DNA of 64,000 nucleotides from Tubiluchus corallicola. Lineage: Eukaryota; Priapulida; Priapulimorpha; Priapulimorphida; Tubiluchidae. The position numbers and the translations under genes were made by a program. Under the pieces are notes generated by a model that did not search any database, was not told the origin of the DNA, and saw only the letters and a program-made list of their open reading frames with translations. The stretch spans positions 78,948 through 142,947 of the forward strand of contig JAQGDQ010000555.1 of NCBI GenBank assembly GCA_030141605.1, in the 5' to 3' direction. Positions 16,401 to 64,000 of this stretch are shown here, one piece after another (the first letter of the stretch is position 1; the number at the start of each line of letters is the position of its first letter).

Positions 16401-19400
16401 TCGTAAGCAAAATGTATTTTTATTTAGGATTTTATCAAATTATATACAAATTTTTTGTTTGCTTGAAATTCCAATTACAAATTACAACAATAAAATTACA
16501 TGTTTGTCTCATTTTACACTGTATTAAAACAGTGGTTAAACATTGTCTGAAGCAACAACCCCACTAATTTTAGCTACTAAATGCCACCATTACAAACTGC
16601 AGGTTATTATTAGGCAACAAAAGGGAAAAACGCTTGATACTAATACTGATGCTCTGTTTTGGAGCACAGGAATAATAATCCCAGATCTCTGGTTCAAATC
16701 CCGACTAGTCTACAATTTTTCAGCATTTTTTTTCTTTCTCCAATTTTTAACCCTCAATGGGAAATAATTGTTAAAAACGATCATCAGTGGTTTGTAATCA
16801 CTCCGCTAATCACAGTCATAATCTTGCTAATTAATTATGTTGTCAGCTGCCAGCTCATTTGAGAAAAGTGTTGACACCTGATACTAAAATTATTTCAGTT
16901 TCGGTAATATCCCTGTGCACAATACGTACTAGTAAACGTATACAATGTGCACATAGAAAACAACATATGTTTGCTAGACAGAAGTGGGGAGACTTTGAAT
17001 TTCAGTCTCGGTAATATCCCTGTGCACAATACGTACTAGTAAACGTATACAATGTGCACATATAAAACAACATATGTTTGCCAGACAGAAGTGGGGAGAC
17101 TTTGAATTTCAGTCTCGATAATATCCCTGTGCACAATACGTACTAGTAAACGTATACAATGTGCACATAGAAAACAACATATGTTTGCCAGACAGAAGCG
17201 GGGAGACTCTGAATTTGCCGATTCTCCATATTTTCCGATGCTAAACTAATACAGTAGACGCCATGTGTTAGAATCACGGTAATGTAGAATCAATCACCTA
17301 ATTGCCTCAAAAACGTCTAGTATGGGCCGCCCTATGCAAAATTGTAGAAAAGCTGTTGGCAATTAACTCTGCATAATTGATTCTATATTTTTACACATAG
17401 AGATATGCATGTGGTCACACTGATGTACGTAATGTAAACCCGATCGGCTCGCGAAATAACAGACTGTGTCCGTATTACATGAGAATTTTAACTGACCAAA
17501 TTTTGTCCGAATTTTCCGATATCCGCAAAAGTCTGGCAAACCACAACAATAAGCTTACAAGCATGTAATGAGAACATCCTAAGCACTGATGGATCACAGT
17601 AATAAGCTTACAAGCATGTAATGAGAACATCCTAAGTACTGATGGGCCACAATAATAAGCTTACAAGCATGTAATGAGAACATCCTAAGTACTGATGGGT
17701 CACAGTAATAAGCTTACAAGCATGTAATGAGAACATCCTAAGCACTGATGGATCACAGTGATAAGCTTACAAGCATGTAATGAGAACATCCTAAGTACTG
17801 ATGGGTCACAGTAATAAGCTTACAAGCATGTAATGAGAACATCCTAAGTACTGATGGGCCACAGTAATAAGCTTACAAGCATGTAATGAGAACATCCTAA
17901 GTACTGATGGGCCACAGTAATAAGCTTACAAGCATGTAATGAGAACATCCTAAGTACTGATGGGCCACAGTAATAAGCTTACAAGCATGTAATGAGAACA
18001 TCCTAAGTACTGATGGGCCACAGTAATAAGCTTGCAAGCATGTAATGAGAACATCCTAAGTACTGATGGACCACAATAATAAGCTTACAAGCATGTAATG
18101 AGAACATCCTAAGTACCATCCGACACTTAGGACACTAAGTTCAACTTTTTCTTTAGTTTTCTTTTTATTTATTTTTTTTCCTTTGAAACAGATTTTAATA
18201 TTTTATTTTAATGTGTTTGTTTGTTTGTTTCTAGAGACTAGCTGGAGCTACTCTCTTAGTATTTGCAAATAAACAGGATTTACCTGGTGCATTGACTGGT
18301 GATAATCTCAGACAGGTGAGTAAAGTTTTTCTCCGTGTTTGCATACCTGTTGAATAACTTTTGTAATTAAGTTGTTCTTTCTTAACTTACAATATTTTCT
18401 CATTAGATTGCTGTAGCACAAAATTTTAAATTTGCTTCGCTAGACCCGTTGTAATTTCATGCAAATCTTTATAATGTGTTTTATGGCAAAATGGTTTCTA
18501 GGGTGAGGACAAATGATTTCAAATTTTTTTCGATGTTCGATTTTAGCTGACAGTGTTCGATTTGATACAATTCAACTTCGATTTTTGGTGAAGAAGAGTT
18601 TTTCAACCTATGCAAGTGTATTTCTTGATTTGATTGTCAGTACGTTTATCCCTAACTCCAGTGCACTGCTAAATTACTTGCATTACAAGTATTAGCACAC
18701 TCAGTGAAAATTTTCAGCACAAAACTTCTTGAACTTGCGCCATCTTGTGCCGTCAGGTTTAATAAACGCTTAGTGCACATGGCTGTAGATGTTCTTGCAT
18801 TAAGGAAACCGAAGATTTTTTTGCCATTAAGCAGCGGTCCAACGTTGAGGATGGAAAAATTGAATTTTTAATCGTAGCAGCAAGCTGTTTTTCGATGTTG
18901 AAGAATTAAATGTTGATTTGATAGTTGCGCAATATTTGTTAGTACTCCAATTTCCTGTCCCTTTATCTAGACAAAACTTTGTTTATTATGAGATTATTTA
19001 CCCTGACTATGCTTGAAGGCAGTCAGAGTCAAGAAGTAGTCCAGTCACATTGTTTCTAATGCTAATTATTTGGTACCATGATTAAGTTCTTTGGAAAGTG
19101 TGTATGAAGAGTAGTAAAAACAATGGCAAAATATTTGATTTCTTAGCATTTGGCAGTCAGTAACTGCATTTTTTCTATGATTATGACATGAAACTTGATA
19201 ACTTTTTTCTCTAGTTCTTGGATTTGGATAGCATAGTAACACATCATTGGAACATTGTTACATGGAGTGTTGTTACTAATGATTCAATCACTTCGTGTTT
19301 TATTCTCTAGTTGCTGGATTTGGATAGCATAGTAACACATCACTGGAACATTGTTACATGCAGTGCTGTTACTAATGATTCAATCACTTCGTGTTTTATT

Positions 19401-19829
19401 CTCTAGTTGCTGGATTTGGATAGCATAGTAACACATCACTGGAACATTGTTACATGTAGTGTTGTTACCAATGATTCAATCACTTCGTGTTTTATTCTCT
19501 AGTTGTTGGATTTGGATAGCATAGTAACTCATCACTGGAACATTGTTACATGCAGTGCTGTTACTAATGATTCAATCACTTCGTGTTTTATTCTCTAGTT
19601 GTTGGATTTGGATAGCATAGTAACTCATCACTGGAACATTGTTACATGCAGTGCTGTTACTAATGATTCAATCACTTCGTGTTTTATTCTCTAGTTGTTG
19701 GATTTGGATAGCATAGTAACACATCACTGGAACATTGTTACATGCAGTGCTGTTACTGGAGATAATCTACTTCATGGTGTTAACTGGATTATTGATGACA
19801 TTTCTTCAAGGATATTTACCATGGACTGA
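10441..19829 (+). CDS. ARL2: ADP-ribosylation-factor-like protein 2 (Arl2), five coding exons
   Basis: Coding exons are 10441-10505, 12588-12698, 15066-15228, 18235-18315 and 19695-19829. All introns are GT..AG and the phases fit. The total is 555 nt, 184 residues plus TGA, exactly the Arl2 length. The start is [11 protein letters not shown]. Visible GTPase motifs are the P-loop GLDNAGKT (23-30), switch I Thr47, DVGGQ with Gln70, NKQD (125-128) and CSAVTG (157-162). In animals Arl2 is a cytosolic and mitochondrial small GTPase. It binds tubulin cofactor D and prenyl-cargo carriers such as PDE6D and BART, and so acts in tubulin folding and cargo release. Oddities are the minisatellite-filled introns and a decoy copy array directly before the last exon. 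A GTGAGT at 19835 just after the stop suggests a further 3' UTR intron. A possible UTR acceptor (TTTTCAG) lies just upstream of the ATG. Confidence 0.96.
13545..13815. repeat. 48 bp minisatellite in Arl2 intron 2
   Basis: About 5.5 tandem copies of a 48 bp unit containing GAGTTAGGTGAGAAGG and TTGCAGAGTTTGAGCTGTAG. Copies differ by a few substitutions. The unit is a multiple of three, so both strands show spurious open frames. Confidence 0.95.
14020..14878. repeat. 57 bp minisatellite in Arl2 intron 2
   Basis: About 15 copies of a 57 bp unit (landmarks GTGTGTTTGGAAATTGGAAT and TTGCACTTGACACAAAAACT). One early copy is shortened. Because 57 is divisible by three, long frames are open on both strands (298 codons plus, 278 codons minus). 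The array lies in an intron and shows no codon-like substitution pattern, so I treat these frames as non-coding. Confidence 0.95.
15552..16235. repeat. 60 bp minisatellite in Arl2 intron 3
   Basis: About 11 copies of a 60 bp unit (landmarks ATGGAACTGTGTTGTTCACA and CATAGGTCCAGCAACATC). AGGTCCAGCA occurs twice within each unit, so the unit itself may have arisen from a shorter repeat of about 30 bp. Confidence 0.96.
16284..16303. repeat. Perfect 9 bp stem palindrome
   Basis: CTAGTAGCA and TGCTACTAG are perfect complements separated by two bases. They are followed at 16321-16334 by a second small stem (CCTCAC/GTGAGG). This could be a foldback relic at the end of the 60 bp array. Confidence 0.6.
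16894..17214. repeat. 107 bp tandem repeat, three copies, Arl2 intron 3
   Basis: Three copies at an exact 107 bp period, nearly identical. Each contains GTGCACAATACGT followed after a short spacer by ACGTATACAATGTGCAC, an imperfect inverted repeat that could fold into a hairpin. Confidence 0.95.
17220..17535 (-). repeat. Interspersed repeat copy 2 (inverted relative to 9.4 kb)
   Basis: Reverse-complement homologue of the repeat at 9360-9720, sharing AATTGATTCTATATTTTTAC and CCTAATTGCCTCAAAAACG landmarks. It lies between two tandem arrays inside Arl2 intron 3. Confidence 0.7.
17543..18117. repeat. 53 bp minisatellite in Arl2 intron 3
   Basis: About 11 copies of a 53 bp unit (landmarks AATAAGCTTACAAGCATGTA and GAACATCCTAAGTACTGATG). 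Copies are almost identical, which implies recent expansion. It ends about 120 bp before the acceptor of Arl2 exon 4. Confidence 0.96.
19215..19694 (+). repeat. 96 bp tandem array of duplicated Arl2 exon-5 acceptor and exon start
   Basis: Five complete 96 bp units begin at 19215, 19311, 19407, 19503 and 19599, each directly after a CTCTAG acceptor. Each unit carries the first 63 bases of exon 5 (codons for [12 protein letters not shown] through AVT). About 33 bases of intron tail then end in the next CTCTAG. Read in the Arl2 frame, every unit diverges after the AVT-equivalent codon and stops at the TAG formed by the following acceptor. Use of any upstream acceptor would therefore give a 171-residue protein with an aberrant C-terminus. 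Only the sixth acceptor, before 19695, leads into the full exon. Confidence 0.95.
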
Positions 19830-24479: not shown

Positions 24480-25790
24480 TTAGTATAAGCTCCTTACCTA
24501 TATTGTCCCTTTGCGTTATAAGGAAAAGCAAATCCTATTTGCTTTGTTCAGCGATTTCTGCAAGTCCAATTTGGAACCACTTCAAAAAATGAGCCATTCT
24601 TCATCTTTCTCCAGGTAACTTAAAGCATGTCACAAGCTAGACTTGTGCAGAAAATCTGTGAATCCTCAAGCAAGCTCTCGGATCTTTCCACAACAATTTT
24701 ATTTGTCCGTTGTTGACTATTATTTCACTACCTCGTGCATCCAGCGATTTAATGTAATTAAAATAAATAGTGAAGAGTAAGAATCACCAACTGTCTAAAT
24801 GGCTAGTCTACTTAAGCCCAGGAAAGTAATTAGTTTCTGTTAGATCATTAAATTTTGCAGCACCTTAAGCTGGTCCGTCTAATAAGTAATTACTAAACAG
24901 GTCAGCAACTGAAGAATGAAAAGGTCAGCAAGTCGAAAATTAGATGATTGTAGCAGCAAAAAACAGCAGAGGAAACAATTAGAAAATTAAAGGTTTGACA
25001 GTTTAAGATACTTCCTTGATTTTCTAGGCATACATTGAAATTCTTGATTAGCGATCTTTAAGGTATAGTAGATGCAAACTATGACGAAGTGTTTCACAAG
25101 GTAGCGCACACCGTCAAGCAGAATCTTATATTTTGACATGTGGCATTTGATATTTTATTTTCCTTAATAATGTGAGCGACAGTACTCTGTGCAGCACAGT
25201 ATTGGTCAAATGTAGCTCTAACGTGATTTTCCGCCTGACTAGACCACGTTATGGAGTGGTTGTTGGCACACACAATCGCGTGTCATCATTGTGAAAAGAT
25301 TTCAATGAGATGTATAAATTTTCATTTTCATGAATCTTGGACTCAATTGCAGCAGTAAATAGTTTATCAAATTTAATATTTACAAGATGGATATTTTACA
25401 GTTTAATGTATAATCGTCAGAAAAACACTTACTTATTTCTTGCCTTCTTCATAAAGACTGCTGTCCTCTCTGGCGTTATTGCAAAAGATGTTGCCTTATT
25501 GGAGGAAAATGCTGTTGCCATATACGATGTGGCTCATGATGCTCTTGTTGTCTGGGTCACTTATGTTGTTGTTTATGTTTATGTCTTTGTCGTTGCTGTT
25601 GTACATTTATTATTCCTCCTATTTGTATTTTTACACGTAAACAAGCCGCATTTAATGAACATTTATTTTGACCTAAGCCTAACTGCATCATAAAAAATTG
25701 GGCTAAATGCAAGTGACGTCTGCACATGATATATAAGACTAATGTATGATTATATGGCGATATAATTGATATAATTATAATATTTGTATG
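24480..25790. other. No gene recognised
   Basis: The longest frame here (plus strand, 25337-25693) is hydrophobic and valine-rich through a GTTGTT-rich tract. It has no family signature and I do not accept it as a gene. Confidence 0.45.
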
Positions 25791-25794
25791 TCAG

Positions 25795-26848
25795 AATAGC
25801 TACCTCCTATATTTTTGTTCTTCTAAACCATGAGGTTGTATGTCAGAATGGCTGTCTTCTACATTTTAGTTCTTCTAAACCACGAGGTTGTATGTCAGAA
25901 TGGCTACCTTCTACATTTTAGTTCTTCTAAACCATGAGGTTGTATGTCAGAATGGCTGTCTTCTACATTTAGTTCTTCTAAACCACGAGGTTGTATGTCA
26001 GAATGGCTACCTTCTACATTTTAGTTCTTCTAAACCATGAGGTTGTATGTCAGAATGGCTACCTCCTATATTTTTGTTCTTCTAAACCACGAGGTTGTAT
26101 GTCAGAATGGCTGTCTTCTACATTTTAGTTCTTCTAAACCACGAGGTTGTATGTCAGAATGGCTACCTTCTACATTTTAGTTCTTCTGAACCATGAGGTT
26201 GTATGTCAGAATGGCTGTCTTCTACATTTTAGTTCTTCTAAACCACGAGGCTGTATGTCAGAATGGCTACCTTCTACATTTTAGTTCTTCTAAACCACGA
26301 GGTTGTATGTCAGAATGGCTGTCTTCTACATTTTAGTTCTTCTAAACCATGAGGTTGTATGTCAGAATGGCTGTCTTCTACATTTTAGTTCTTCTAAACC
26401 ACGAGGTTGTATGTCAGAATGGCTACCTTCTACATTTTAGTTCTTCAAAACCACGAGGTTGTATGTCAGAATGGCTATCTTCTACATTTTAGTTCTTCTA
26501 AACCACGAGGTTGTGTGTCAGAATGGCTGTCTTCTACATTTTAGTTCTGCTAAACCACGAGGTTGTGTGTCAGAATGGCTACCTTCTACACTTTAGTTCT
26601 TCAAAACCACGAGGTTGTATGTCAGAATGGCTGTCTTCTACATTTTAGTTCTTCTAAACCACGAGGTTGTATGTCAGAATGGCTACCTTCTACATTTTAG
26701 TTCTTCAAAACCACGAGGTTGTATGTCAGAATGGCTATCTTCTACATTTTAGTTCTTCTAAACCACGAGGTTGTGTGTCAGAATGGCTGTCTTCTACATT
26801 TTAGTTCTGCTAAACCACGAGGTTGTGTGTCAGAATGGCTACCTTCTA
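25795..26848. repeat. 52 bp minisatellite, first block (about 20 units)
   Basis: Tandem 52 bp units with landmarks CACGAGGTTGTATGTCAGAA and CTTCTACATTTTAGTTCTTC. The array ends exactly after CTTCTA (26843-26848), where the fusion-protein/RT insert begins. Confidence 0.97.
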
Positions 26849-26987
26849 TTTTATTATTATTTATTTATTGACCATGGTCAAAGATATATACAAAAAGTCA
26901 TAAGAATCGTTTCGAGATAGTTGCAACATTTAAGAAATTTGGGCTGATCATAGTCCATAGATCACTCAATGTATGGTGTAGTAACAA

Positions 26988-28487
26988 TTAGAGACCAAAA
27001 ATGGCTAGAGCATCGTGTACAAAATTACAAATATCAGCGGGATTTCCGCTGAAGAAAGTCACTAAATCATCAAATATTAAATCGGAATTGTTTCTTAAGA
27101 TACGTGTTTCAGGGCATTCACATATTACGTGCAGTTCTGTTTGGATTTGTCCACATGAACAGAGTCTTCGCTCTCTTTCAATACGGGACCAACGACCAGT
27201 TTCTATGGCAAGGTTGTGTGAGGAAAGTCTGAGCCTTGACGTTTTTATCCGTTTCAGTTCATTAACATTGTCACAGTAAATTCGATGGATAGAGAGTTCA
27301 GGGTTTAGTTGTAAGTATGTGACAAATTTCGTACGGTCAGAAGCGCGGGTCCTATCTTTGATTCTATTCAGGTCATCATCGATAAAATCACCACGGTATC
27401 CAGTTATATTACGCAAATATCGAGCACATGGGGTGTTTGACTCGCGACACAAATTGTAAACAATCATAAACGGATCATCAGGAATATTCACTCTTGAGCG
27501 AACACTCTTATTGAAAAAGCGAGATTGGGTGTCCTTCACAAAACCATTCAGGGAGGGAAGGCCCAACTCTATGAGACACAAATCATTAGCAGTTGTACGT
27601 CGCACACCGAGTAAACATTTGATAACACTAATATACATCCCTTGAATAGGATTAAGGTCATTGAATAGCCAAGACTCACATCCGTAAGTAATTGCAGCAA
27701 GTAGCGCGGCATTTAAAACTAACTTCTTAACTGCGAAAGGATAAGCTGAATTCTTAGAAATAAATGACACGAACTTCAGTACGTGACAATATTTGTCTTC
27801 GCAGTGTTTTTCCAGAGCGGGTTTAAATTTTCCTGTTGAGCTAAAGACAGCACCGAGGTAAACGTAATAGTCACAGTGATTAACAGTAAGGGGGTTCACT
27901 ACGAGGTCCAGACGATCAACAGCATCGCCATTAATAACCATAAATTTAGTCTTTTTTAAGTTCACCTTCATACCGGATTGATCACAGAACTCAATAAGGA
28001 TACTGAGTTTTTGAATAATACCTTCTCTAGATGTTGACAATAAGATTGTATCATCCATCAACATCAAACAGTGTAAATTTCCTAGGAAACCATCGAGACC
28101 ACATCGAGACTTTAATTCACGAATAAGAGGGTTAATATACAGTGTGAAGAGGAAACAGGATGACGGAGAACCCTGCTTCACACCTAATGTAACACCAATA
28201 ACGGCAGCACCAAGGACCAGCTGCGTATTCACATACATGGCAGCAAGAGCAGAAAGCATCACAAGACGACAGCCAAGAGCTCTCAAGGCCCTAATCAAAC
28301 CAGAACGTGGAACTCTATCGTAAGCTTTCGAGAAGTCTACGAAAACGATATATAATTTCCTCTTTTTAAACAGTGCATAGTCCATTAATAGTCTTAGAGT
28401 CACAATCCACTCAATGCAGGATCTACCCTTTTGGGCGCCAGCCTGCTCCCTATCGGGTTTGAACCACATCTCTAAACGAAAAAACAA
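26988..28487 (-). CDS. Non-LTR reverse transcriptase, N-terminally truncated (copy 1)
   Basis: The open frame is about 499 codons with RT motif A (FVDFSKAYD, 49-57), motif B (GVKQGSPSS, about 102-110) and motif C as LMDD (143-146) rather than YADD. A C-terminal zinc-knuckle-like CSCGQ...HVICEC cluster lies at 443-458. The endonuclease and the RT finger motifs before QAGAQKGRS are absent. The frame has no ATG at its start: it is open from just after a stop that overlaps the preceding fusion-protein ORF, and the first ATG falls inside LEMW. It therefore looks like the 3' part of a LINE fused behind another gene. Copy 1 differs from copies 2 and 3 by Ser instead of Ile in FNKSVRS. Confidence 0.85.
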   Translation of the reverse strand: MFFRLEMWFKPDREQAGAQKGRSCIEWIVTLRLLMDYALFKKRKLYIVFVDFSKAYDRVPRSGLIRALRALGCRLVMLSALAAMYVNTQLVLGAAVIGVTLGVKQGSPSSCFLFTLYINPLIRELKSRCGLDGFLGNLHCLMLMDDTILLSTSREGIIQKLSILIEFCDQSGMKVNLKKTKFMVINGDAVDRLDLVVNPLTVNHCDYYVYLGAVFSSTGKFKPALEKHCEDKYCHVLKFVSFISKNSAYPFAVKKLVLNAALLAAITYGCESWLFNDLNPIQGMYISVIKCLLGVRRTTANDLCLIELGLPSLNGFVKDTQSRFFNKSVRSRVNIPDDPFMIVYNLCRESNTPCARYLRNITGYRGDFIDDDLNRIKDRTRASDRTKFVTYLQLNPELSIHRIYCDNVNELKRIKTSRLRLSSHNLAIETGRWSRIERERRLCSCGQIQTELHVICECPETRILRNNSDLIFDDLVTFFSGNPADICNFVHDALAIFGL

Positions 28488-28507
28488 GTTATAGTGTTTT
28501 GATATAA

Positions 28508-30019
28508 TTATAGTTCATCTTCTGATCTTTTGGCACATTCTTTCATTTCTATACTTTCTCCTTGAACTGCGTTTTTGTTTTTAATCTTGAATCTGATCAA
28601 CTTGTACCCAATCCAAATGAGCAAAGAATTCACCTCAATACACGTGATTACCGTCATTAGCCATAGCCAATCTTTCGCAGAAGAGTAATCTTCATACCAG
28701 GCTAATGGTTCCATTTCGTGGTGAGAAATAAGTAGTGCATGAGTTTTGTTAATTAAAGCATTTATCTCGTCGGTATAAGTAGTTAGATTATGGCTCTCCA
28801 ATTTAGGTATCCAACTTTTCACCCGGTGGAGAGAATCACTACATTTGAGAAAATATCCAGGGAGATGATACTCATTAGCTTTCTTGCATGTTAGCACAAG
28901 ACTAGTGTTCTTGGGAATAATCTTTTCTGATGCTCCTGTATATCTTGATACTGTTCTTAATGAATAACTAGCCTGTCTTTGAACTAGCCACCCACCCATT
29001 AATGTAACTACTCCCCAACTTTCTGGCGACCTTTCATATTTGATAGATTGGTCAAACGGTTGGGTTTCCAAATAAGTTGGGCATACAATTACATTAAGAT
29101 CTTGGCAAGATCCAGGAGGAATAATTTTAATTTCATTTATTCCCAAAATCATGTTGAATGCGTTTCCGTGGACAACCCAAGTTCCTCCTTTGACGATTGG
29201 CACATTCTGTGTCTTTACATGTACTTTGCCAGGCACTTGGATGATTTCTCTGACATTGATTAACATCCACAGTCTTCGTGGCTCAGATTTAATGACTATA
29301 GCCCGGCTAGCTCCATAGGATAGCGGGATGCTGTTCTTTTGGTCAGACATGAGAGAATGAAACTGGGTGGGACTGATCAGTAGGGGGTCTATTTTTGAAG
29401 AGGTGATAGATTGTAGGCCATGTCCATATCGGATAGAATTTAAATAGTCGTGAAGTTTCTTCATGTCGTTAGCGTGTGCCATCATCAGGTTATGTACATT
29501 AGCATCTAACTTGCCAACAATTCTCTCTAACTCTTCTAGATCGTGGCCTAGGATACCTATTTCTTTATTAGCTATTTCCAGTTCATGTGCTATTATCCCT
29601 TGATTGTTTCTTAATTCCCCCATTTTCTTATTTAATGAATTTATTTCTGCCCTGTTTGTAGCGCCTAAGGCTAAAGCAGCAGTCGCCTCTGCCATAGCTG
29701 CGCTGGACATAATTAATCCGAGAAATCGTTTTTTCCTGTTATTATGGGTTGAAGAATTATCTTTTTCTCGAAACTGAAAGAGATCGTAATGAATATTCCA
29801 GGCCCGGGACATATCGACTCTAACAACTTTGAAAGATTGTGCCACTTGATACCCAATGGGTTTTGGTTCTGTAATTATAATGCCATAAGACGCCAAGGCA
29901 TCTTGATGTTTGTAGATTATATCTTGCGATAATTGTGGAATAATACTATTTACACTTATTATGGTTCCATAAGTAACAGCTGAAAGAACAAGAAGGATTG
30001 AAAGAGTATAATGACCCAT
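28508..30019 (-). CDS. Class I viral fusion-glycoprotein-like ORF (copy 1)
   Basis: An intact 503-residue membrane protein. It has a signal peptide (about 1-18) and a furin-type site RKKR (95-98). An Ala/Gly-rich hydrophobic fusion-peptide-like segment follows (99-121), then a long heptad-type helix (about 122-190), a second short helix before the membrane (about 405-432), a transmembrane segment (about 450-472) and a basic cytoplasmic tail. Four N-glycosylation sequons (N88, N371, N410, N424) and few cysteines (305, 313, 378, 393) are present. This layout is that of class I fusion proteins such as paramyxovirus F or retroviral/errantiviral envelope proteins. The family is not settled. The ATG lies five bases from the insert end. 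No stop or frameshift is present, so the copy is recent or conserved. Confidence 0.7.
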   Translation of the reverse strand: MGHYTLSILLVLSAVTYGTIISVNSIIPQLSQDIIYKHQDALASYGIIITEPKPIGYQVAQSFKVVRVDMSRAWNIHYDLFQFREKDNSSTHNNRKKRFLGLIMSSAAMAEATAALALGATNRAEINSLNKKMGELRNNQGIIAHELEIANKEIGILGHDLEELERIVGKLDANVHNLMMAHANDMKKLHDYLNSIRYGHGLQSITSSKIDPLLISPTQFHSLMSDQKNSIPLSYGASRAIVIKSEPRRLWMLINVREIIQVPGKVHVKTQNVPIVKGGTWVVHGNAFNMILGINEIKIIPPGSCQDLNVIVCPTYLETQPFDQSIKYERSPESWGVVTLMGGWLVQRQASYSLRTVSRYTGASEKIIPKNTSLVLTCKKANEYHLPGYFLKCSDSLHRVKSWIPKLESHNLTTYTDEINALINKTHALLISHHEMEPLAWYEDYSSAKDWLWLMTVITCIEVNSLLIWIGYKLIRFKIKNKNAVQGESIEMKECAKRSEDEL

Positions 30020-30024
30020 TTTGA

Positions 30025-30548
30025 CTTCTACATTTTAGTTCTTCAAAACCACGAGGTTGTATGTCAGAATGGCTATCTTCTACATTTTAGTTCTTCTAAA
30101 CCACGAGGTTGTATGTCAGAATGGCTACCTCCTATATTTTTGTTCTTCAAAACCATGAGGTTGTATGTCAGAATGGCTACCTTCTACATTTTAGTTCTTC
30201 TAAACCACGAGGTTGTATGTCAGAATGGCTATCTTCTACATTTTAGTTCTTCTAAACCACGAGGTTGTATGTCAGAATGGCTATCTTCTACATTTTAGTT
30301 CTTCTAAACCACGAGGTTGTATGTCAGAATGGCTCTTCTACATTTTAGTTCTGCTAAACCACGAGGTTGTATGTCAGAATGGCTATCTTCTACATTTTAG
30401 TTCTTCAAAACCACGAGGTTGTATGTCAGAATGGCTATCTTCTACATTTTAGTTCTTCTAAACCACGAGGTTGTGTGTCAGAATGGCTGTCTTCTACATT
30501 TTAGTTCTGCTAAACCACGAGGTTGTGTGTCAGAATGGCTACCTTCTA
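30025..30548. repeat. 52 bp minisatellite, second block
   Basis: About ten 52 bp units, including one shortened unit (GGCTCTTCTACAT). Identical in layout to the block at 33725-34248. Confidence 0.97.
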
Positions 30549-30687
30549 TTTTATTATTATTTATTTATTGACCATGGTCAAAGATATATACAAAAAGTCA
30601 TAAGAATCGTTTCGAGATAGTTGCAACATTTAAGAAATTTGGGCTGATCATAGTCCATAGATCACTCAATGTATGGTGTAGTAACAA

Positions 30688-32187
30688 TTAGAGACCAAAA
30701 ATGGCTAGAGCATCGTGTACAAAATTACAAATATCAGCGGGATTTCCGCTGAAGAAAGTCACTAAATCATCAAATATTAAATCGGAATTGTTTCTTAAGA
30801 TACGTGTTTCAGGGCATTCACATATTACGTGCAGTTCTGTTTGGATTTGTCCACATGAACAGAGTCTTCGCTCTCTTTCAATACGGGACCAACGACCGGT
30901 TTCTATGGCAAGGTTGTGTGAGGAAAGTCTGAGCCTTGACGTTTTTATCCGTTTCAGTTCATTAACATTGTCACAGTAAATTCGATGGATAGAGAGTTCA
31001 GGGTTTAGTTGTAAGTATGTGACAAATTTCGTACGGTCAGAAGCGCGGGTCCTATCTTTGATTCTATTCAGGTCATCATCGATAAAATCACCACGGTATC
31101 CAGTTATATTACGCAAATATCGAGCACATGGGGTGTTTGACTCGCGACACAAATTGTAAACAATCATAAACGGATCATCAGGAATATTCACTCTTGAGCG
31201 AACAATCTTATTGAAAAAGCGAGATTGGGTGTCCTTCACAAAACCATTCAGGGAGGAAAGGCCCAACTCTATGAGACACAAATCATTAGCAGTTGTACGT
31301 CGCACACCGAGTAAACATTTGATAACACTAATATACATCCCTTGAATAGGATTAAGGTCATTGAATAGCCAAGACTCACATCCGTAAGTAATTGCAGCAA
31401 GTAGCGCGGCATTTAAAACTAACTTCTTAACTGCGAAAGGATAAGCTGAATTCTTAGAAATAAATGACACGAACTTCAGTACGTGACAATATTTGTCTTC
31501 GCAGTGTTTTTCCAGAGCGGGTTTAAATTTTCCTGTTGAGCTAAAGACAGCACCGAGGTAAACGTAATAGTCACAGTGATTAACAGTAAGGGGGTTCACT
31601 ACGAGGTCCAGACGATCAACAGCATCGCCATTAATAACCATAAATTTAGTCTTTTTTAAGTTCACCTTCATACCGGATTGATCACAGAACTCAATAAGGA
31701 TACTGAGTTTTTGAATAATACCTTCTCTAGATGTTGACAATAAGATTGTATCATCCATCAACATCAAACAGTGTAAATTTCCTAGGAAACCATCGAGACC
31801 ACATCTAGACTTTAATTCACGAATAAGAGGGTTAATATACAGTGTGAAGAGGAAACAGGATGACGGAGAACCCTGCTTCACACCTAATGTAACACCAATA
31901 ACGGCAGCACCAAGGACCAGCTGCGTATTCACATACATGGCAGCAAGAGCAGAAAGCATCACAAGACGACAGCCAAGAGCTCTCAAGGCCCTAATCAAAC
32001 CAGAACGTGGAACTCTATCGTAAGCTTTCGAGAAGTCTACGAAAACGATATATAATTTCCTCTTTTTAAACAGTGCATAGTCCATTAATAGTCTTAGAGT
32101 CACAATCCACTCAATGCAGGATCTACCCTTTTGGGCGCCAGCCTGCTCCCTATCGGGTTTGAACCACATCTCTAAACGAAAAAACAA
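30688..32187 (-). CDS. Non-LTR reverse transcriptase, N-terminally truncated (copy 2)
   Basis: Nearly identical to copy 1. It has Ile in FNKIVRS and a private Pro-to-Ser change giving ELGLSSLNG. RT motifs A, B, LMDD and the C-terminal Cys/His cluster are all kept. Confidence 0.85.
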   Translation of the reverse strand: MFFRLEMWFKPDREQAGAQKGRSCIEWIVTLRLLMDYALFKKRKLYIVFVDFSKAYDRVPRSGLIRALRALGCRLVMLSALAAMYVNTQLVLGAAVIGVTLGVKQGSPSSCFLFTLYINPLIRELKSRCGLDGFLGNLHCLMLMDDTILLSTSREGIIQKLSILIEFCDQSGMKVNLKKTKFMVINGDAVDRLDLVVNPLTVNHCDYYVYLGAVFSSTGKFKPALEKHCEDKYCHVLKFVSFISKNSAYPFAVKKLVLNAALLAAITYGCESWLFNDLNPIQGMYISVIKCLLGVRRTTANDLCLIELGLSSLNGFVKDTQSRFFNKIVRSRVNIPDDPFMIVYNLCRESNTPCARYLRNITGYRGDFIDDDLNRIKDRTRASDRTKFVTYLQLNPELSIHRIYCDNVNELKRIKTSRLRLSSHNLAIETGRWSRIERERRLCSCGQIQTELHVICECPETRILRNNSDLIFDDLVTFFSGNPADICNFVHDALAIFGL

Positions 32188-32207
32188 GTTATAGTGTTTT
32201 GATATAA

Positions 32208-33719
32208 TTATAGTTCATCTTCTGATCTTTTGGCACATTCTTTCATTTCTATACTTTCTCCTTGAACTGCGTTTTTGTTTTTAATCTTGAATCTGATCAA
32301 CTTGTACCCAATCCAAATGAGCAAAGAATTCACCTCAATACACGTGATTACCGTCATTAGCCATAGCCAATCTTTCGCAGAAGAGTAATCTTCATACCAG
32401 GCTAATGGTTCCATTTCGTGGTGAGAAATAAGTAGTGCATGAGTTTTGTTAATTAAAGCATTTATCTCGTCGGTATAAGTAGTTAGATTATGGCTCTCCA
32501 ATTTAGGTATCCAACTTTTCACCCGGTGGAGAGAATCACTACATTTGAGAAAATATCCAGGGAGATGATACTCATTAGCTTTCTTGCATGTTAGCACAAG
32601 ACTAGTGTTCTTGGGAATAATCTTTTCTGATGCTCCTGTATATCTTGATACTGTTCTTAATGAATAACTAGCCTGTCTTTGAACTAGCCACCCACCCATT
32701 AATGTAACTACTCCCCAACTTTCTGGCGACCTTTCATATTTGATAGATTGGTCAAACGGTTGGGTTTCCAAATAAGTTGGGCATACAATTACATTAAGAT
32801 CTTGGCAAGATCCAGGAGGAATAATTTTAATTTCATTTATTCCCAAAATCATGTTGAATGCGTTTCCGTGGACAACCCAAGTTCCTCCTTTGACGATTGG
32901 CACATTCTGTGTCTTTACATGTACTTTGCCAGGCACTTGGATGATTTCTCTGACATTGATTAACATCCACAGTCTTCGTGGCTCAGATTTAATGACTATA
33001 GCCCGGCTAGCTCCATAGGATAGCGGGATGCTGTTCTTTTGGTCAGACATGAGAGAATGAAACTGGGTGGGACTGATCAGTAGGGGGTCTATTTTTGAAG
33101 AGGTGATAGATTGTAGGCCATGTCCATATCGGATAGAATTTAAATAGTCGTGAAGTTTCTTCATGTCGTTAGCGTGTGCCATCATCAGGTTATGTACATT
33201 AGCATCTAACTTGCCAACAATTCTCTCTAACTCTTCTAGATCGTGGCCTAGGATACCTATTTCTTTATTAGCTATTTCCAGTTCATGTGCTATTATCCCT
33301 TGATTGTTTCTTAATTCCCCCATTTTCTTATTTAATGAATTTATTTCTGCCCTGTTTGTAGCGCCTAAGGCTAAAGCAGCAGTCGCCTCTGCCATAGCTG
33401 CGCTGGACATAATTAATCCGAGAAATCGTTTTTTCCTGTTATTATGGGTTGAAGAATTATCTTTTTCTCGAAACTGAAAGAGATCGTAATGAATATTCCA
33501 GGCCCGGGACATATCGACTCTAACAACTTTGAAAGATTGTGCCACTTGATACCCAATGGGTTTTGGTTCTGTAATTATAATGCCATAAGACGCCAAGGCA
33601 TCTTGATGTTTGTAGATTATATCTTGCGATAATTGTGGAATAATACTATTTACACTTATTATGGTTCCATAAGTAACAGCTGAAAGAACAAGAAGGATTG
33701 AAAGAGTATAATGACCCAT
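32208..33719 (-). CDS. Class I viral fusion-glycoprotein-like ORF (copy 2)
   Basis: 503 residues, the same protein as copy 1. All features (signal peptide, RKKR site, hydrophobic segment, coiled coil, membrane anchor) are intact. Confidence 0.7.
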   Translation of the reverse strand: MGHYTLSILLVLSAVTYGTIISVNSIIPQLSQDIIYKHQDALASYGIIITEPKPIGYQVAQSFKVVRVDMSRAWNIHYDLFQFREKDNSSTHNNRKKRFLGLIMSSAAMAEATAALALGATNRAEINSLNKKMGELRNNQGIIAHELEIANKEIGILGHDLEELERIVGKLDANVHNLMMAHANDMKKLHDYLNSIRYGHGLQSITSSKIDPLLISPTQFHSLMSDQKNSIPLSYGASRAIVIKSEPRRLWMLINVREIIQVPGKVHVKTQNVPIVKGGTWVVHGNAFNMILGINEIKIIPPGSCQDLNVIVCPTYLETQPFDQSIKYERSPESWGVVTLMGGWLVQRQASYSLRTVSRYTGASEKIIPKNTSLVLTCKKANEYHLPGYFLKCSDSLHRVKSWIPKLESHNLTTYTDEINALINKTHALLISHHEMEPLAWYEDYSSAKDWLWLMTVITCIEVNSLLIWIGYKLIRFKIKNKNAVQGESIEMKECAKRSEDEL

Positions 33720-33724
33720 TTTGA

Positions 33725-34248
33725 CTTCTACATTTTAGTTCTTCAAAACCACGAGGTTGTATGTCAGAATGGCTATCTTCTACATTTTAGTTCTTCTAAA
33801 CCACGAGGTTGTATGTCAGAATGGCTACCTCCTATATTTTTGTTCTTCAAAACCATGAGGTTGTATGTCAGAATGGCTACCTTCTACATTTTAGTTCTTC
33901 TAAACCACGAGGTTGTATGTCAGAATGGCTATCTTCTACATTTTAGTTCTTCTAAACCACGAGGTTGTATGTCAGAATGGCTATCTTCTACATTTTAGTT
34001 CTTCTAAACCACGAGGTTGTATGTCAGAATGGCTCTTCTACATTTTAGTTCTGCTAAACCACGAGGTTGTATGTCAGAATGGCTATCTTCTACATTTTAG
34101 TTCTTCAAAACCACGAGGTTGTATGTCAGAATGGCTATCTTCTACATTTTAGTTCTTCTAAACCACGAGGTTGTGTGTCAGAATGGCTGTCTTCTACATT
34201 TTAGTTCTGCTAAACCACGAGGTTGTGTGTCAGAATGGCTACCTTCTA
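33725..34248. repeat. 52 bp minisatellite, third block
   Basis: Same unit order as the block at 30025-30548. The shortened unit recurs at the same relative position, which shows that the spacer was amplified together with the insert. Confidence 0.97.
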
Positions 34249-34387
34249 TTTTATTATTATTTATTTATTGACCATGGTCAAAGATATATACAAAAAGTCA
34301 TAAGAATCGTTTCGAGATAGCTGCAACATTTAAGAAATTTGGGCTGATCATAGTCCATAGATCACTCAATGTATGGTGTAGTAACAA

Positions 34388-35887
34388 TTAGAGACCAAAA
34401 ATGGCTAGAGCATCGTGTACAAAATTACAAATATCAGCGGGATTTCCGCTGAAGAAAGTCACTAAATCATCAAATATTAAATCGGAATTGTTTCTTAAGA
34501 TACGTGTTTCAGGGCATTCACATATTACGTGCAGTTCTGTTTGGATTTGTCCACATGAACAGAGTCTTCGCTCTCTTTCAATACGGGACCAACGACCGGT
34601 TTCTATGGCAAGGTTGTGTGAGGAAAGTCTGAGCCTTGACGTTTTTATCCGTTTCAGTTCATTAACATTGTCACAGTAAATTCGATGGATAGAGAGTTCA
34701 GGGTTTAGTTGTAAGTATGTGACAAATTTCGTACGGTCAGAAGCGCGGGTCCTATCTTTGATTCTATTCAGGTCATCATCGATAAAATCACCACGGTATC
34801 CAGTTATATTACGCAAATATCGAGCACATGGGGTGTTTGACTCGCGACACAAATTGTAAACAATCATAAACGGATCATCAGGAATATTCACTCTTGAGCG
34901 AACAATCTTATTGAAAAAGCGAGATTGGGTGTCCTTCACAAAACCATTCAGGGAGGGAAGGCCCAACTCTATGAGACACAAATCATTAGCAGTTGTACGT
35001 CGCACACCGAGTAAACATTTGATAACACTAATATACATCCCTTGAATAGGATTAAGGTCATTGAATAGCCAAGACTCACATCCGTAAGTAATTGCAGCAA
35101 GTAGCGCGGCATTTAAAACTAACTTCTTAACTGCGAAAGGATAAGCTGAATTCTTAGAAATAAATGACACGAACTTCAGTACGTGACAATATTTGTCTTC
35201 GCAGTGTTTTTCCAGAGCGGGTTTAAATTTTCCTGTTGAGCTAAAGACAGCACCGAGGTAAACGTAATAGTCACAGTGATTAACAGTAAGGGGGTTCACT
35301 ACGAGGTCCAGACGATCAACAGCATCGCCATTAATAACCATAAATTTAGTCTTTTTTAAGTTCACCTTCATACCGGATTGATCACAGAACTCAATAAGGA
35401 TACTGAGTTTTTGAATAATACCTTCTCTAGATGTTGACAATAAGATTGTATCATCCATCAACATCAAACAGTGTAAATTTCCTAGGAAACCATCGAGACC
35501 ACATCTAGACTTTAATTCACGAATAAGAGGGTTAATATACAGTGTGAAGAGGAAACAGGATGACGGAGAACCCTGCTTCACACCTAATGTAACACCAATA
35601 ACGGCAGCACCAAGGACCAGCTGCGTATTCACATACATGGCAGCAAGAGCAGAAAGCATCACAAGACGACAGCCAAGAGCTCTCAAGGCCCTAATCAAAC
35701 CAGAACGTGGAACTCTATCGTAAGCTTTCGAGAAGTCTACGAAAACGATATATAATTTCCTCTTTTTAAACAGTGCATAGTCCATTAATAGTCTTAGAGT
35801 CACAATCCACTCAATGCAGGATCTACCCTTTTGGGCGCCAGCCTGCTCCCTATCGGGTTTGAACCACATCTCTAAACGAAAAAACAA
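34388..35887 (-). CDS. Non-LTR reverse transcriptase, N-terminally truncated (copy 3)
   Basis: Same ORF as copies 1 and 2, with Ile in FNKIVRS and Pro in ELGLPSLNG. This is the likely ancestral combination, since each other copy differs from it at one site. Confidence 0.85.
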   Translation of the reverse strand: MFFRLEMWFKPDREQAGAQKGRSCIEWIVTLRLLMDYALFKKRKLYIVFVDFSKAYDRVPRSGLIRALRALGCRLVMLSALAAMYVNTQLVLGAAVIGVTLGVKQGSPSSCFLFTLYINPLIRELKSRCGLDGFLGNLHCLMLMDDTILLSTSREGIIQKLSILIEFCDQSGMKVNLKKTKFMVINGDAVDRLDLVVNPLTVNHCDYYVYLGAVFSSTGKFKPALEKHCEDKYCHVLKFVSFISKNSAYPFAVKKLVLNAALLAAITYGCESWLFNDLNPIQGMYISVIKCLLGVRRTTANDLCLIELGLPSLNGFVKDTQSRFFNKIVRSRVNIPDDPFMIVYNLCRESNTPCARYLRNITGYRGDFIDDDLNRIKDRTRASDRTKFVTYLQLNPELSIHRIYCDNVNELKRIKTSRLRLSSHNLAIETGRWSRIERERRLCSCGQIQTELHVICECPETRILRNNSDLIFDDLVTFFSGNPADICNFVHDALAIFGL

Positions 35888-35907
35888 GTTATAGTGTTTT
35901 GATATAA

Positions 35908-37419
35908 TTATAGTTCATCTTCTGATCTTTTGGCACATTCTTTCATTTCTATACTTTCTCCTTGAACTGCGTTTTTGTTTTTAATCTTGAATCTGATCAA
36001 CTTGTACCCAATCCAAATGAGCAAAGAATTCACCTCAATACACGTGATTACCGTCATTAGCCATAGCCAATCTTTCGCAGAAGAGTAATCTTCATACCAG
36101 GCTAATGGTTCCATTTCGTGGTGAGAAATAAGTAGTGCATGAGTTTTGTTAATTAAAGCATTTATCTCGTCGGTATAAGTAGTTAGATTATGGCTCTCCA
36201 ATTTAGGTATCCAACTTTTCACCCGGTGGAGAGAATCACTACATTTGAGAAAATATCCAGGGAGATGATACTCATTAGCTTTCTTGCATGTTAGCACAAG
36301 ACTAGTGTTCTTGGGAATAATCTTTTCTGATGCTCCTGTATATCTTGATACTGTTCTTAATGAATAACTAGCCTGTCTTTGAACTAGCCACCCACCCATT
36401 AATGTAACTACTCCCCAACTTTCTGGCGACCTTTCATATTTGATAGATTGGTCAAACGGTTGGGTTTCCAAATAAGTTGGGCATACAATTACATTAAGAT
36501 CTTGGCAAGATCCAGGAGGAATAATTTTAATTTCATTTATTCCCAAAATCATGTTGAATGCGTTTCCGTGGACAACCCAAGTTCCTCCTTTGACGATTGG
36601 CACATTCTGTGTCTTTACATGTACTTTGCCAGGCACTTGGATGATTTCTCTGACATTGATTAACATCCACAGTCTTCGTGGCTCAGATTTAATGACTATA
36701 GCCCGGCTAGCTCCATAGGATAGCGGGATGCTGTTCTTTTGGTCAGACATGAGAGAATGAAACTGGGTGGGACTGATCAGTAGGGGGTCTATTTTTGAAG
36801 AGGTGATAGATTGTAGGCCATGTCCATATCGGATAGAATTTAAATAGTCGTGAAGTTTCTTCATGTCGTTAGCGTGTGCCATCATCAGGTTATGTACATT
36901 AGCATCTAACTTGCCAACAATTCTCTCTAACTCTTCTAGATCGTGGCCTAGGATACCTATTTCTTTATTAGCTATTTCCAGTTCATGTGCTATTATCCCT
37001 TGATTGTTTCTTAAGTCCCCCATTTTCTTATTTAATGAATTTATTTCTGCCCTGTTTGTAGCGCCTAAGGCTAAAGCAGCAGTCGCCTCTGCCATAGCTG
37101 CGCTGGACATAATTAATCCGAGAAATCGTTTTTTCCTGTTATTATGGGTTGAAGAATTATCTTTTTCTCGAAACTGAATGAGATCGTAATGAATATTCCA
37201 GGCCCGGGACATATCGACTCTAACAACTTTGAAAGATTGTGCCACTTGATACCCAATGGGTTTTGGTTCTGTAATTATAATGCCATAAGACGCCAAGGCA
37301 TCTTGATGTTTGTAGATTATATCTTGCGATAATTGTGGAATAATACTATTTACACTTATTATGGTTCCATAAGTAACAGCTGAAAGAACAAGAAGGATTG
37401 AAAGAGTATAATGACCCAT
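35908..37419 (-). CDS. Class I viral fusion-glycoprotein-like ORF (copy 3)
   Basis: 503 residues, intact. It differs from copies 1 and 2 by Phe-to-Ile at position 81 (before QFREK) and Glu-to-Asp in KKMGDLRNN. Both changes leave the cleavage site and the hydrophobic segment untouched. Confidence 0.7.
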   Translation of the reverse strand: MGHYTLSILLVLSAVTYGTIISVNSIIPQLSQDIIYKHQDALASYGIIITEPKPIGYQVAQSFKVVRVDMSRAWNIHYDLIQFREKDNSSTHNNRKKRFLGLIMSSAAMAEATAALALGATNRAEINSLNKKMGDLRNNQGIIAHELEIANKEIGILGHDLEELERIVGKLDANVHNLMMAHANDMKKLHDYLNSIRYGHGLQSITSSKIDPLLISPTQFHSLMSDQKNSIPLSYGASRAIVIKSEPRRLWMLINVREIIQVPGKVHVKTQNVPIVKGGTWVVHGNAFNMILGINEIKIIPPGSCQDLNVIVCPTYLETQPFDQSIKYERSPESWGVVTLMGGWLVQRQASYSLRTVSRYTGASEKIIPKNTSLVLTCKKANEYHLPGYFLKCSDSLHRVKSWIPKLESHNLTTYTDEINALINKTHALLISHHEMEPLAWYEDYSSAKDWLWLMTVITCIEVNSLLIWIGYKLIRFKIKNKNAVQGESIEMKECAKRSEDEL

Positions 37420-37424
37420 TTTGA

Positions 37425-37792
37425 CTTCTACATTTTAGTTCTTCAAAACCACGAGGTTGTATGTCAGAATGGCTATCTTCTACATTTTAGTTCTTCTAAA
37501 CCACGAGGTTGTATGTCAGAATGGCTACCTCCTATATTTTTGTTCTTCAAAACCATGAGGTTGTATGTCAGAATGGCTACCTTCTACATTTTAGTTCTTC
37601 TAAACCACGAGGTTGTATGTCAGAATGGCTATCTTCTACATTTTAGTTCTTCTAAACCACGAGGTTGTATGTCAGAATGGCTATCTTCTACATTTTAGTT
37701 CTTCTAAACCACGAGGTTGTATGTCAGAATGGCTCTTCTACATTTTAGTTCTGCTAAACCACGAGGTTGTATGTCAGAATGGCTACCTTCTA
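37425..37792. repeat. 52 bp minisatellite, fourth block
   Basis: Seven units. The array stops after CTTCTA (37787-37792), the same unit position at which the composite inserts start, and is followed at once by the nucleoprotein-like gene. Confidence 0.95.
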
Positions 37793-37798
37793 TGCAAT

Positions 37799-38866
37799 TT
37801 ATGCAATTTTGAAATTGGTCGTGGTTGTTTGGAATTCATCATCACTGTCTTCGATATACTTGTTTCCTACTGTGTGTCTGGTTACTTGATCCCTTTGAAA
37901 GTTTGCTCTTTCTATGGAGAGGTTTTCCATTGCCTGTCTTACATCTTCAGAGCCCTCATTTCTCGCCGCTGTAGCGGCTTCTCTTCTGATGATTTTTCCT
38001 AGCTGTTTCGCGAATTCGTCGATTGTTGGGGAAACATCAGGCTTTTTATATTGCCAAACACTGTATCGAGGGTCGTTTGTGTTATCCTTATCGGAAATGA
38101 TGTGCAATAATACTGTTGTGAGTACTCTGTTATTGTTAGTACTTATGTTGGTGAATGCATTTTGGTTAAAGTTTTTGGCGTACAAATAGGATTTGTCGGG
38201 TCTCCCAACACAAGTTTGCCAGAACCTTTGGAGCCGGAGCAACTCTTTTATAGTCCATGAGCACCCTATTTTCTTTAACAACTCATTTCTGTCCAGTTTT
38301 GTAGACTCTGTGGCTTGTGCTAACAATTGGGGAAGTGTAAGTGAGGCCCACGTTAGGTGTCTCATTACAGCAAAGTTTACATACCGATAGAGTTCTTCTC
38401 CCCGACCAGTTATCCTTCCGCTCCTTACACAAAGCCCAAACGTCATAAGCGCTGTTGCGCAGACCTCCGGACGTGAAAACACTGTATAGTAAGCATTCCA
38501 TAGTGACTCGTTGACTTTGAGTCCTAGTGGCCTATAATTCCACATCATTGAATTCTCAGTTTCTTCACTCAGTACTTTGTTTCTTACTTGTTTCGATTTG
38601 CCTGCCGCTCGAGTGAGAACCATTACAAGAAAACATATTGAGTCTAATTCCCATTCGTAGATGTCGGTAGCTGCCGTTTCAAAATAACTGTCGACTTTTT
38701 CCCACACCTCAATGATGTCGTTGGTCATGACATCTGGTGATCGTTGAGGAAGTTTAGATAGTTCATGGAGTAATTTGCCTGTGTCACCATCTGATCCGGA
38801 GGTTCCAGGCTCTAGATCTTCTCCCTTTGATCCAGCATTCAATTTGGCATAGCTGCCCAAAGTCAT
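37799..38866 (-). CDS. Nucleoprotein-like helical protein of possible negative-strand-virus origin
   Basis: The frame is open from 39136. The part upstream of Met 38866 is hydrophobic and repeat-like, so I take MTLGSYAKLN at 38866 as the likely start (355 residues). The protein is predominantly helical, with aromatic-rich segments (DIYEWELDSICFLV, RLQRFWQTCVGRPDKSYLY). A flexible acidic N-terminal stretch precedes the core and an acidic tail (YIEDSDDEFQ) ends it. Size, fold impression and tail suggest an RNA-virus nucleoprotein of mononegavirus type captured in the genome. I see no diagnostic motif, so this is inference. The stop codon lies six bases from the minisatellite. The frame is intact, pointing to recent capture or retained function. 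It is collinear with the fusion-protein ORFs. Confidence 0.4.
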   Translation of the reverse strand: MTLGSYAKLNAGSKGEDLEPGTSGSDGDTGKLLHELSKLPQRSPDVMTNDIIEVWEKVDSYFETAATDIYEWELDSICFLVMVLTRAAGKSKQVRNKVLSEETENSMMWNYRPLGLKVNESLWNAYYTVFSRPEVCATALMTFGLCVRSGRITGRGEELYRYVNFAVMRHLTWASLTLPQLLAQATESTKLDRNELLKKIGCSWTIKELLRLQRFWQTCVGRPDKSYLYAKNFNQNAFTNISTNNNRVLTTVLLHIISDKDNTNDPRYSVWQYKKPDVSPTIDEFAKQLGKIIRREAATAARNEGSEDVRQAMENLSIERANFQRDQVTRHTVGNKYIEDSDDEFQTTTTNFKIA

Positions 38867-39120
38867 AGTTTTGTGTTGGAGCGGAAAGTCTTGCGAGAAC
38901 TCATCACACAAATTATTACCAGGTGTTACACATTTTGGATCACGTACAGTATTACCAGATGTTACACATTTTTTGCAAAAGACAAATTTACAATTATATG
39001 TAATAGTAAAACATATGTAACGAGCTACAAATTGGATTAGTACTATACAAGGAGAATGCATTACAGGATAAGATACATATTCACAATTATACGATAATAA
39101 AAATATATAAGGTAAGATTA

Positions 39121-63500: not shown

Positions 63501-64000
63501 TTATTTTAGCAAAACACGAGTGTATGACATGTGGGGGGAGAAAAATGCAAATTTATTTTAACAAAGCACGAGTGTATGACGTGTGGGGAGAAGCGTACAG
63601 AATTTATTTTAGCAAAGTACTTGTGTATGACACGGTGGAGAGGAAAGTACAAATTTATTTTGGCAAAGCACGAGTGTATGCCATGTGTGTGAAGAAAAAT
63701 ACAAATTTATTTTAACAAAGCACGAGTGTATGACACGGTGGAGAGGAAAATACAAATTTATTTTAACAAAGCACGAGTGTATGACGTGTGTGGGGAGAAA
63801 AATACAGAATTTGTTTTAGCAAAACACGAGTGTATGACATGTGGGGGGAGAAAAATGCAAATTTATTTTAACAAAGCACGAGTGTATGACATGTGTGGGG
63901 AGGAAAATACAAATTTACTTTAACAAAGCACGAGTGTATGACATGTGGGGGGAGAAAAATGCAAATTTATTTTAACAAAGCACGAGTGTATGACATGTGG
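60541..64000. repeat. 52 bp minisatellite with higher-order structure, runs past the window end
   Basis: Degenerate units begin at about 60541 and regular ones at about 60670. Unit landmarks are AAAGCACGAGTGTATGACAT, GTGTGGGGAGAAAAATACA and AATTTATTTTAACA, with 50-53 bp length variants. Two sub-types (AAGCGTACAGAATT and TACTTGTGTATGACACGGTG) are interspersed in fixed order. Blocks such as 62187-62682 recur at 63428-63923, a 1241 bp period. Numerous open frames on both strands are by-products of the repeat. Confidence 0.97.

Follow-up and report, generated by a model that had tools for sequence, protein, structure and literature searches.

How did an intact open reading frame (ORF) resembling a viral fusion glycoprotein (F) come to lie directly against a truncated LINE reverse transcriptase (RT) gene? 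The window, i.e. the whole stretch of 64,000 nt of contig C42 that was analysed, contains three 3176-bp inserts with this arrangement, located on the minus strand (the element sense) inside a 52-bp satellite. The original prediction left a choice between a new type of LINE carrying an envelope-like first ORF and an RT that had changed templates, leaving a LINE RNA for a viral or viral-derived mRNA.

Structure of the composite insert

The features of the inserts and of the surrounding satellite are as follows:

26849..30024, minus strand: composite insert copy 1, putative viral F half plus LINE half (sequence comparison, genome search, duplication)
30549..33724, minus strand: composite insert copy 2 (4 differences from copy 1)
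34249..37424, minus strand: composite insert copy 3 (6 differences from copy 1)
25784..26848, no strand: 52-bp satellite around the insert, resuming at 30025-30548, 33725-34248 and 37425-37792 (repeat comparison)
26843..26848, no strand: target duplication CTTCTA, left (in-register satellite, 6-base overlap)
30025..30030, no strand: target duplication CTTCTA, right (in-register satellite, 6-base overlap)
26849..28478, minus strand: 5′-truncated LINE, from inside the RT gene to the tail (RVT_1 match, sibling alignment)
26849..26870, minus strand: LINE 3′ tail of the AATAAATAAATAATAATAAAA type (similar tails in siblings)
28479..28483, minus strand: five T separating the two halves of the insert (sibling comparison)
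28484..28488, minus strand: CTTGT closing the 24-base 3′ UTR (gene-border comparison)
28508..30019, minus strand: 503-codon F-like glycoprotein ORF, copy 1 (ORF listing, sequence scan)
32208-33719 and 35908-37419, minus strand: the same F ORF in the further insert copies
30022..30028, minus strand: GAAGTCA, putative viral gene start and mRNA 5′ end (gene-border comparison)

The three nearly identical inserts, with the A-rich 3′ tail and CTTCTA duplication first described for them, were found again, the copies differing pairwise at only 4, 6 and 4 positions, and the ORF expected to start five bases inside the insert end is open in all three. The satellite spacers between the copies are 524 bp each and identical to one another; copies 2 and 3 also have identical left flanks, as judged from a 600-base comparison. 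Beyond copy 1 the satellite picks up in register, with CTTCTA at both ends. Since the register is kept with a 6-base overlap, a single duplication encloses the whole composite and nothing lies between its halves. A random join within a 52-bp array would rarely produce such in-register resumption. The composite insert is thus confirmed as read in the assembly.

Read in the element sense, the insert begins after the target TAGAAG with TCAAAATGGG and the 503-codon ORF, followed by a 24-base 3′ UTR that ends in CTTGT; five T come next, then the LINE from inside its RT gene to the tail, and finally TAGAAGG. The junction lies at 28478/28479. That is, the LINE half covers 26849-28478 and the viral half 28479-30024, or up to 30028 if the bases common with the target are counted. 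The ambiguity stems from GAAGTCA, whose GAAG coincides with the target duplication TAGAAG. The five T at the junction may have been added without a template or may belong to the 3′ UTR itself. At two other loci the putative viral gene end likewise has CTTGT before its A run; here no poly(A) comes after CTTGT, whose presence at the junction could be due to chance.

Elsewhere in the window, several unrelated minisatellites were observed at 13532-19757 and 60673-64000 (units of 48, 57, 60, 107, 53, 96 and 52 bp). Another LINE is present in two inverted copies, at 2701-3672 and 49002-49973, which are 97% complementary, the latter being part of frames in which PHD, endonuclease and RT domains occur.

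LINE siblings, F relatives and their viral setting

The RT frame of the insert matches RVT_1 at 1.3e-26. The match covers profile positions 40-194 only, so that the start of the RT domain is absent in addition to the endonuclease, whose absence had been pointed out before. The insert was compared with the 343,548,820 bases (343.5 Mb) of the assembly, in 2344 contigs, the best 40 of 53 candidates being scored and the counts therefore lower bounds. At least 43 matches were obtained: the three window copies, at least 26 further matches to the LINE half and at least 14 to the F half. At least 13 of the LINE-half matches stop at query position 1630, which is the junction, and none of the at least 26 extends past it among the matches listed for the 343.5-Mb assembly. 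The 3′ part of the insert is thus the 3′ terminus of a LINE family of which independent copies exist. Six of the seven siblings fetched run on upstream of the junction point as ordinary RT sequence; in sibling L010 the truncation falls just downstream of that point. Within the stretches fetched, five of the seven are truncated at differing points, whereas L004 and L009 agree with each other up to the edge. Sibling L004 has a 996-codon open frame, running off the fetched end, with matches to Exo_endo_phos (26.3 bits; cut-off 24.5) and RVT_1. Candidate 6-bp duplications were recognized by eye in two of five siblings (TAGTGC and TGCAAG). Because the siblings differ from the window copy by only 11-21 mismatches in 1568 shared positions, the insert appears to be recent, in keeping with the earlier suggestion.

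A search for the junction had been proposed as a check. The 50-base junction is present in only 6 of the 52 fetched loci, all six from the window's own contig, alongside a longer LINE family without the ORF. Among the fetched loci this LINE adjoins F in the window copies alone, and no family member with an F ORF upstream of RT was seen at an unlinked site among the matches listed and loci fetched. On contig C1996 a different, related-looking LINE RT end was noted further downstream of F (by eye; no Pfam match).

The F family is separate. Searching the genome at the protein level yielded 25 matches, spread over eight contigs: C42, i.e. the window (3), C1996 (1), C1349 (1), C464 (8), C43 (4), C2181 (2), C394 (5) and C2176 (1). 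At C1996 and C43, the only two other loci that keep the F stop, this stop is followed by CTTGTAAAAAAA-T-GAAGTCA, and at C43 the next ORF begins directly with GAAGTCAAAATG after the F border. Each of the five F pieces of C394 is preceded by an A run-T-GAAGTCA, and upstream of the first of them stands another ORF, itself starting with GAAGTCAACATG. In total, GAAGTCA occurs upstream of F in four of the eight contigs (C42, C1996, C394 and, for one copy out of three, C43). The first F copy of C464 has GAGGTCA instead, the motif is absent upstream of F at C2181 and in two C43 copies, and the C1349 and C2176 sequences are cut inside F. At C464, F residues 1-275 are joined to a polymerase (L) fragment matching Mononeg_RNA_pol (PF00946, 1.1e-10) and Mononeg_mRNAcap (PF14318, 9.1e-10), a frame found three times in locus L018. 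The best solved-structure match of this fragment is a 1711-residue polymerase (3.9e-7), which we take from its length to be a bornavirus L protein.

The window copy of F starts at the putative viral gene start GAAGTCA. Because of the gene borders at C1996, C43 and C394 and of the polymerase fragment at C464, the F half looks like the F-type fusion glycoprotein gene of a mononegavirus, the mononegaviral similarity coming from linked pieces (the L fragment and the neighbouring nucleoprotein-like ORF described below) and not from F itself. An origin of F as the Env of an LTR element is not favoured, as F adjoins viral gene borders and an L fragment.

A number of further arrangements were observed at these loci. 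At C1996 (L016 3577-5158, minus strand) the F unit interrupts a reading frame which, judged by eye, is similar to a C43 ORF, itself sharing a stretch with a Flavi_DEAD ORF. Both edges of the unit are marked by the 7-mer GAAGTCA, so that the unit would be either an insert nested in the frame or the outcome of switching out and returning at this shared 7-mer. Flavivirus-like pieces occur near F-like or N-like pieces in L020 and L021 (C43) and L024 (C2173), with Flavi_DEAD at 6.7e-8 in L021 8545-9114, and related frames recur across these three loci. C464 (L018, L019) has a tandem array of F pieces with the L fragment and C394 (L043) an array of F pieces after A runs, so that several loci show tandem amplification of viral inserts. 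At C1349 (L032 1261-3132) a 466-codon F copy lies between 241-bp direct repeats (99.6% alike) that contain an apparent host exon. At C2181 (L017 3667-5515) an F with an internal deletion continues into a frame of DUF5641, a domain presumably linked to BEL/Pao elements. No LTR pair was found around this F-DUF5641 frame, which is possibly a chimera with a BEL/Pao RNA.

Another viral piece lies next to the inserts:

37799..38869, minus strand, open frame to 39163: nucleoprotein-like (N-like) ORF, 5′-truncated relative to its relatives (PF03216, 27 bits; cut-off 25)

This ORF, on the same strand and 374 bases past insert copy 3, has relatives in three other contigs. It is a second viral insert, separate from the F-LINE insert. 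It meets the satellite at 37793-37799 after CTTCTA, which is the position used by the F-LINE insert in a different monomer, and the 52-bp satellite may therefore be a repeated insertion target. At the N loci no exact GAAGTCA border turned up, only look-alikes with GAAGTT, seen by eye.

The F-like protein and the constraint on it

The N-terminus of the F protein is hydrophobic. RKKR occupies residues 95-98; a hydrophobic stretch rich in alanine and a pattern of the coiled-coil kind come after it, and a transmembrane segment lies at about 452-471. In the sequence scan, then, a signal peptide, basic cleavage site, hydrophobic fusion peptide, coiled coil and C-terminal transmembrane segment are all in place, and the protein is most likely a viral membrane-fusion glycoprotein of the class I type. 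The earlier description as class I fusion-protein-like draws on this anatomy and on sub-threshold matches. In Pfam, YflT ranked first (0.0043) and Fusion_gly second (0.0054) for the window F, both below cut-off. Fusion_gly does align at the cleavage and fusion-peptide region in four F proteins, with E-values of 0.0054-0.0094, none significant alone, and scores of 15.5, 15.3, 14.7 and 15.3 bits against a cut-off of 29.8. A score of 31.0 bits was obtained for a frame holding a tandem pair of F pieces, solely by summing two domains.

Among solved structures neither F nor N had a significant match, whether a single sequence or a profile was used: 7 of the 14 matches of a five-row F profile were F proteins, aligned at the cleavage and fusion-peptide region (best E-value 0.25), and the two best for F alone were to an alphavirus E1 (1.4 and 2.2). 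The single-sequence structure model of F was poor (mean pLDDT 33.7, pTM 0.24), the Rfam search gave no useful match, and protein searches and viral contig scans returned no exogenous relative of F or N.

In its length of about 500 residues, the cleavage site near residue 98, the hydrophobic stretch and coiled coil past that site and the C-terminal transmembrane segment, the protein is similar to the F proteins of paramyxoviruses and pneumoviruses, with weak matches in the same region. In contrast to them, it has only four conserved ectodomain cysteines and no significant full-length match. These cysteines (305, 313, 378 and 393) are conserved in the three alignment rows that cover them. No cysteine occurs before residue 305, hence none N-terminal of the cleavage site, and the F2-F1 disulfide, a defining feature of paramyxovirus-type F, is therefore impossible.

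Selection on F was estimated by a crude Nei-Gojobori calculation, setting aside pairs that overlap over only 14-57 codons, in which non-homologous ends inflate pN. The closest F copies to the window are the two C2181 pieces. Against one of them the window F shows 31 synonymous and 3 nonsynonymous changes over 154 codons (dS 0.40, dN/dS 0.021), and against the other 46 and 6 over 182 codons (dS 0.56, dN/dS 0.025). For the remaining F loci the synonymous sites are saturated relative to the window, with pN of 0.11-0.18. The C2181 F now has an internal deletion and, in one piece, a stop; therefore the constraint predates capture. Strong constraint alone could also reflect selection in the host, but a virus that kept replicating and was captured several times seems to fit it better than decaying host copies. 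Among the window copies the F changes are 2 nonsynonymous and 0 synonymous, so that the window gives no sign of host selection. A host gene family is likewise not favoured as the identity of F, given these changes in the window and the strong constraint lying between loci.

Origin of the insert and its meaning

Very probably, the insert is an endogenous viral element that arose when a LINE RT, in the course of reverse transcription, changed its template once, from the LINE RNA to a viral F mRNA. The LINE endonuclease would have nicked a 52-bp satellite monomer after CTTCTA, and the LINE RT would have copied the 3′ 1.63 kb of the LINE RNA, left it within the RT-coding region and entered a mononegavirus F-type mRNA near its 3′ end. 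On reaching the mRNA 5′ end (GAAGTCAAAATG), the cDNA would have joined the target through the shared GAAG, giving the 6-bp duplication; the presence of GAAG in both the mRNA 5′ end and the target may have aided this final join. The insert together with 524 bp of satellite would then have been tripled, probably by unequal exchange. We infer the mRNA (and not antigenome) nature of the template, the timing of the switch during target priming and the route of the tripling. Template switching would explain why the viral half starts at a putative gene start and ends near a putative gene end, as well as the common sense of the halves, the LINE tail and the single duplication. It is the second of the two origins first proposed and is well supported by the existence of a LINE family without the ORF and of a separate F family. 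Among the points against a switch to viral mRNA are the absence of viral poly(A) and the five T at the junction; the former would follow if the mRNA had been entered just inside its tail, or if the template was without polyadenylation.

One duplication, one tail and a common sense of the halves would likewise result if the chimeric RNA came first, i.e. if an F insert upstream of a truncated LINE elsewhere had been transcribed through both and retrotransposed here. Such a source locus could have been missed with the best 40 of 53 candidates scored across 2344 contigs, but no locus with both LINE and F parts was found among the at least 43 DNA matches or the 25 F matches. Moreover, F spans the putative gene start to near the putative gene end, as an mRNA template predicts, and this origin is considered unlikely. 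Chance abutment of two separate insertions, a truncated LINE and an F insert, is less probable still: the genome is rich in viral inserts, some of them nested (C1996), so close neighbours do happen, but here the halves share one sense, with no satellite between them and one in-register duplication around both. Tandem copies within a satellite are hard to assemble, but an assembly error at the junction is highly improbable, as three SNP-distinct copies have the junction in common and the satellite register is kept. As for a new LINE lineage with an envelope-like first ORF, the F ORF does precede the RT frame in the same sense within the window, but the idea retains next to no credibility, since none of the at least 26 further LINE matches crosses the junction, the siblings have ordinary endonuclease and RT, and F has other partners elsewhere.

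LINE template switching and LINE-made viral inserts are known separately. The virus behind the HBx-L1 chimeric RNA has its own reverse transcriptase. This RNA of liver cancer resembles the insert in combining a viral mRNA and L1 sequence within one molecule, but, according to the available part of the source, which also deals with L1-made bornavirus elements, it is a somatic chimeric transcript and not a germ-line insert with a target duplication (PMC8554740). Template switching of LINEs to host RNAs is established in Magnaporthe and mammals (PMC2104539, available part). Like the chimeric retrogenes described there, the insert has two directly fused transcripts with the LINE 3′ part at the 3′ end, the full 5′ end of the second RNA and one flanking duplication. 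Unlike in the available parts of that paper and of one on mammalian L1 chimeras, in whose main text 'viral' and 'virus' have 0 occurrences (PMC13174262), the partner here would be a viral glycoprotein mRNA with an intact ORF. Viral inserts of single mRNAs made by LINEs are established in mammals, where bornavirus and filovirus elements likewise place a single mononegaviral transcript in the genome with a target duplication and a tail (PMC2987831, available part); in our case the tail is that of the LINE, without viral poly(A), and two RNAs are fused. Vertebrate viral inserts, including bornavirus glycoprotein-like ones, and class I relationships are treated, in the parts available, in PMC11521997 and PMC12583693, respectively. 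In the literature searched, with most subscription journals outside its scope, no germ-line chimera of a LINE and a viral mRNA with an intact glycoprotein ORF was found.

For RNA viruses without a reverse transcriptase, germ-line entry is usually deduced from duplications and tails. In this insert the probable route of the enzyme is legible base by base, from the LINE RNA and then through the viral mRNA to the putative transcription start. The insert thus offers a concrete, testable route for viral inserts, an early survey having seen, in its available part, no apparent LINE hallmarks in insects (PMC2987831). A virus lineage comes to light as well, with a glycoprotein and a nucleoprotein that are without relative in the collections searched. 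More tentatively, and with somewhat less than even confidence, we suggest that the genome archives a mononegavirus lineage not yet described, whose F-type class I glycoprotein is poor in cysteine, and that recurrent template switching by retroelement enzymes brought its mRNAs into the germ line, from the LINE RNA here and possibly from a BEL/Pao RNA at C2181. If this is true, intact entry-protein genes would have arrived already joined to the end of a mobile element.
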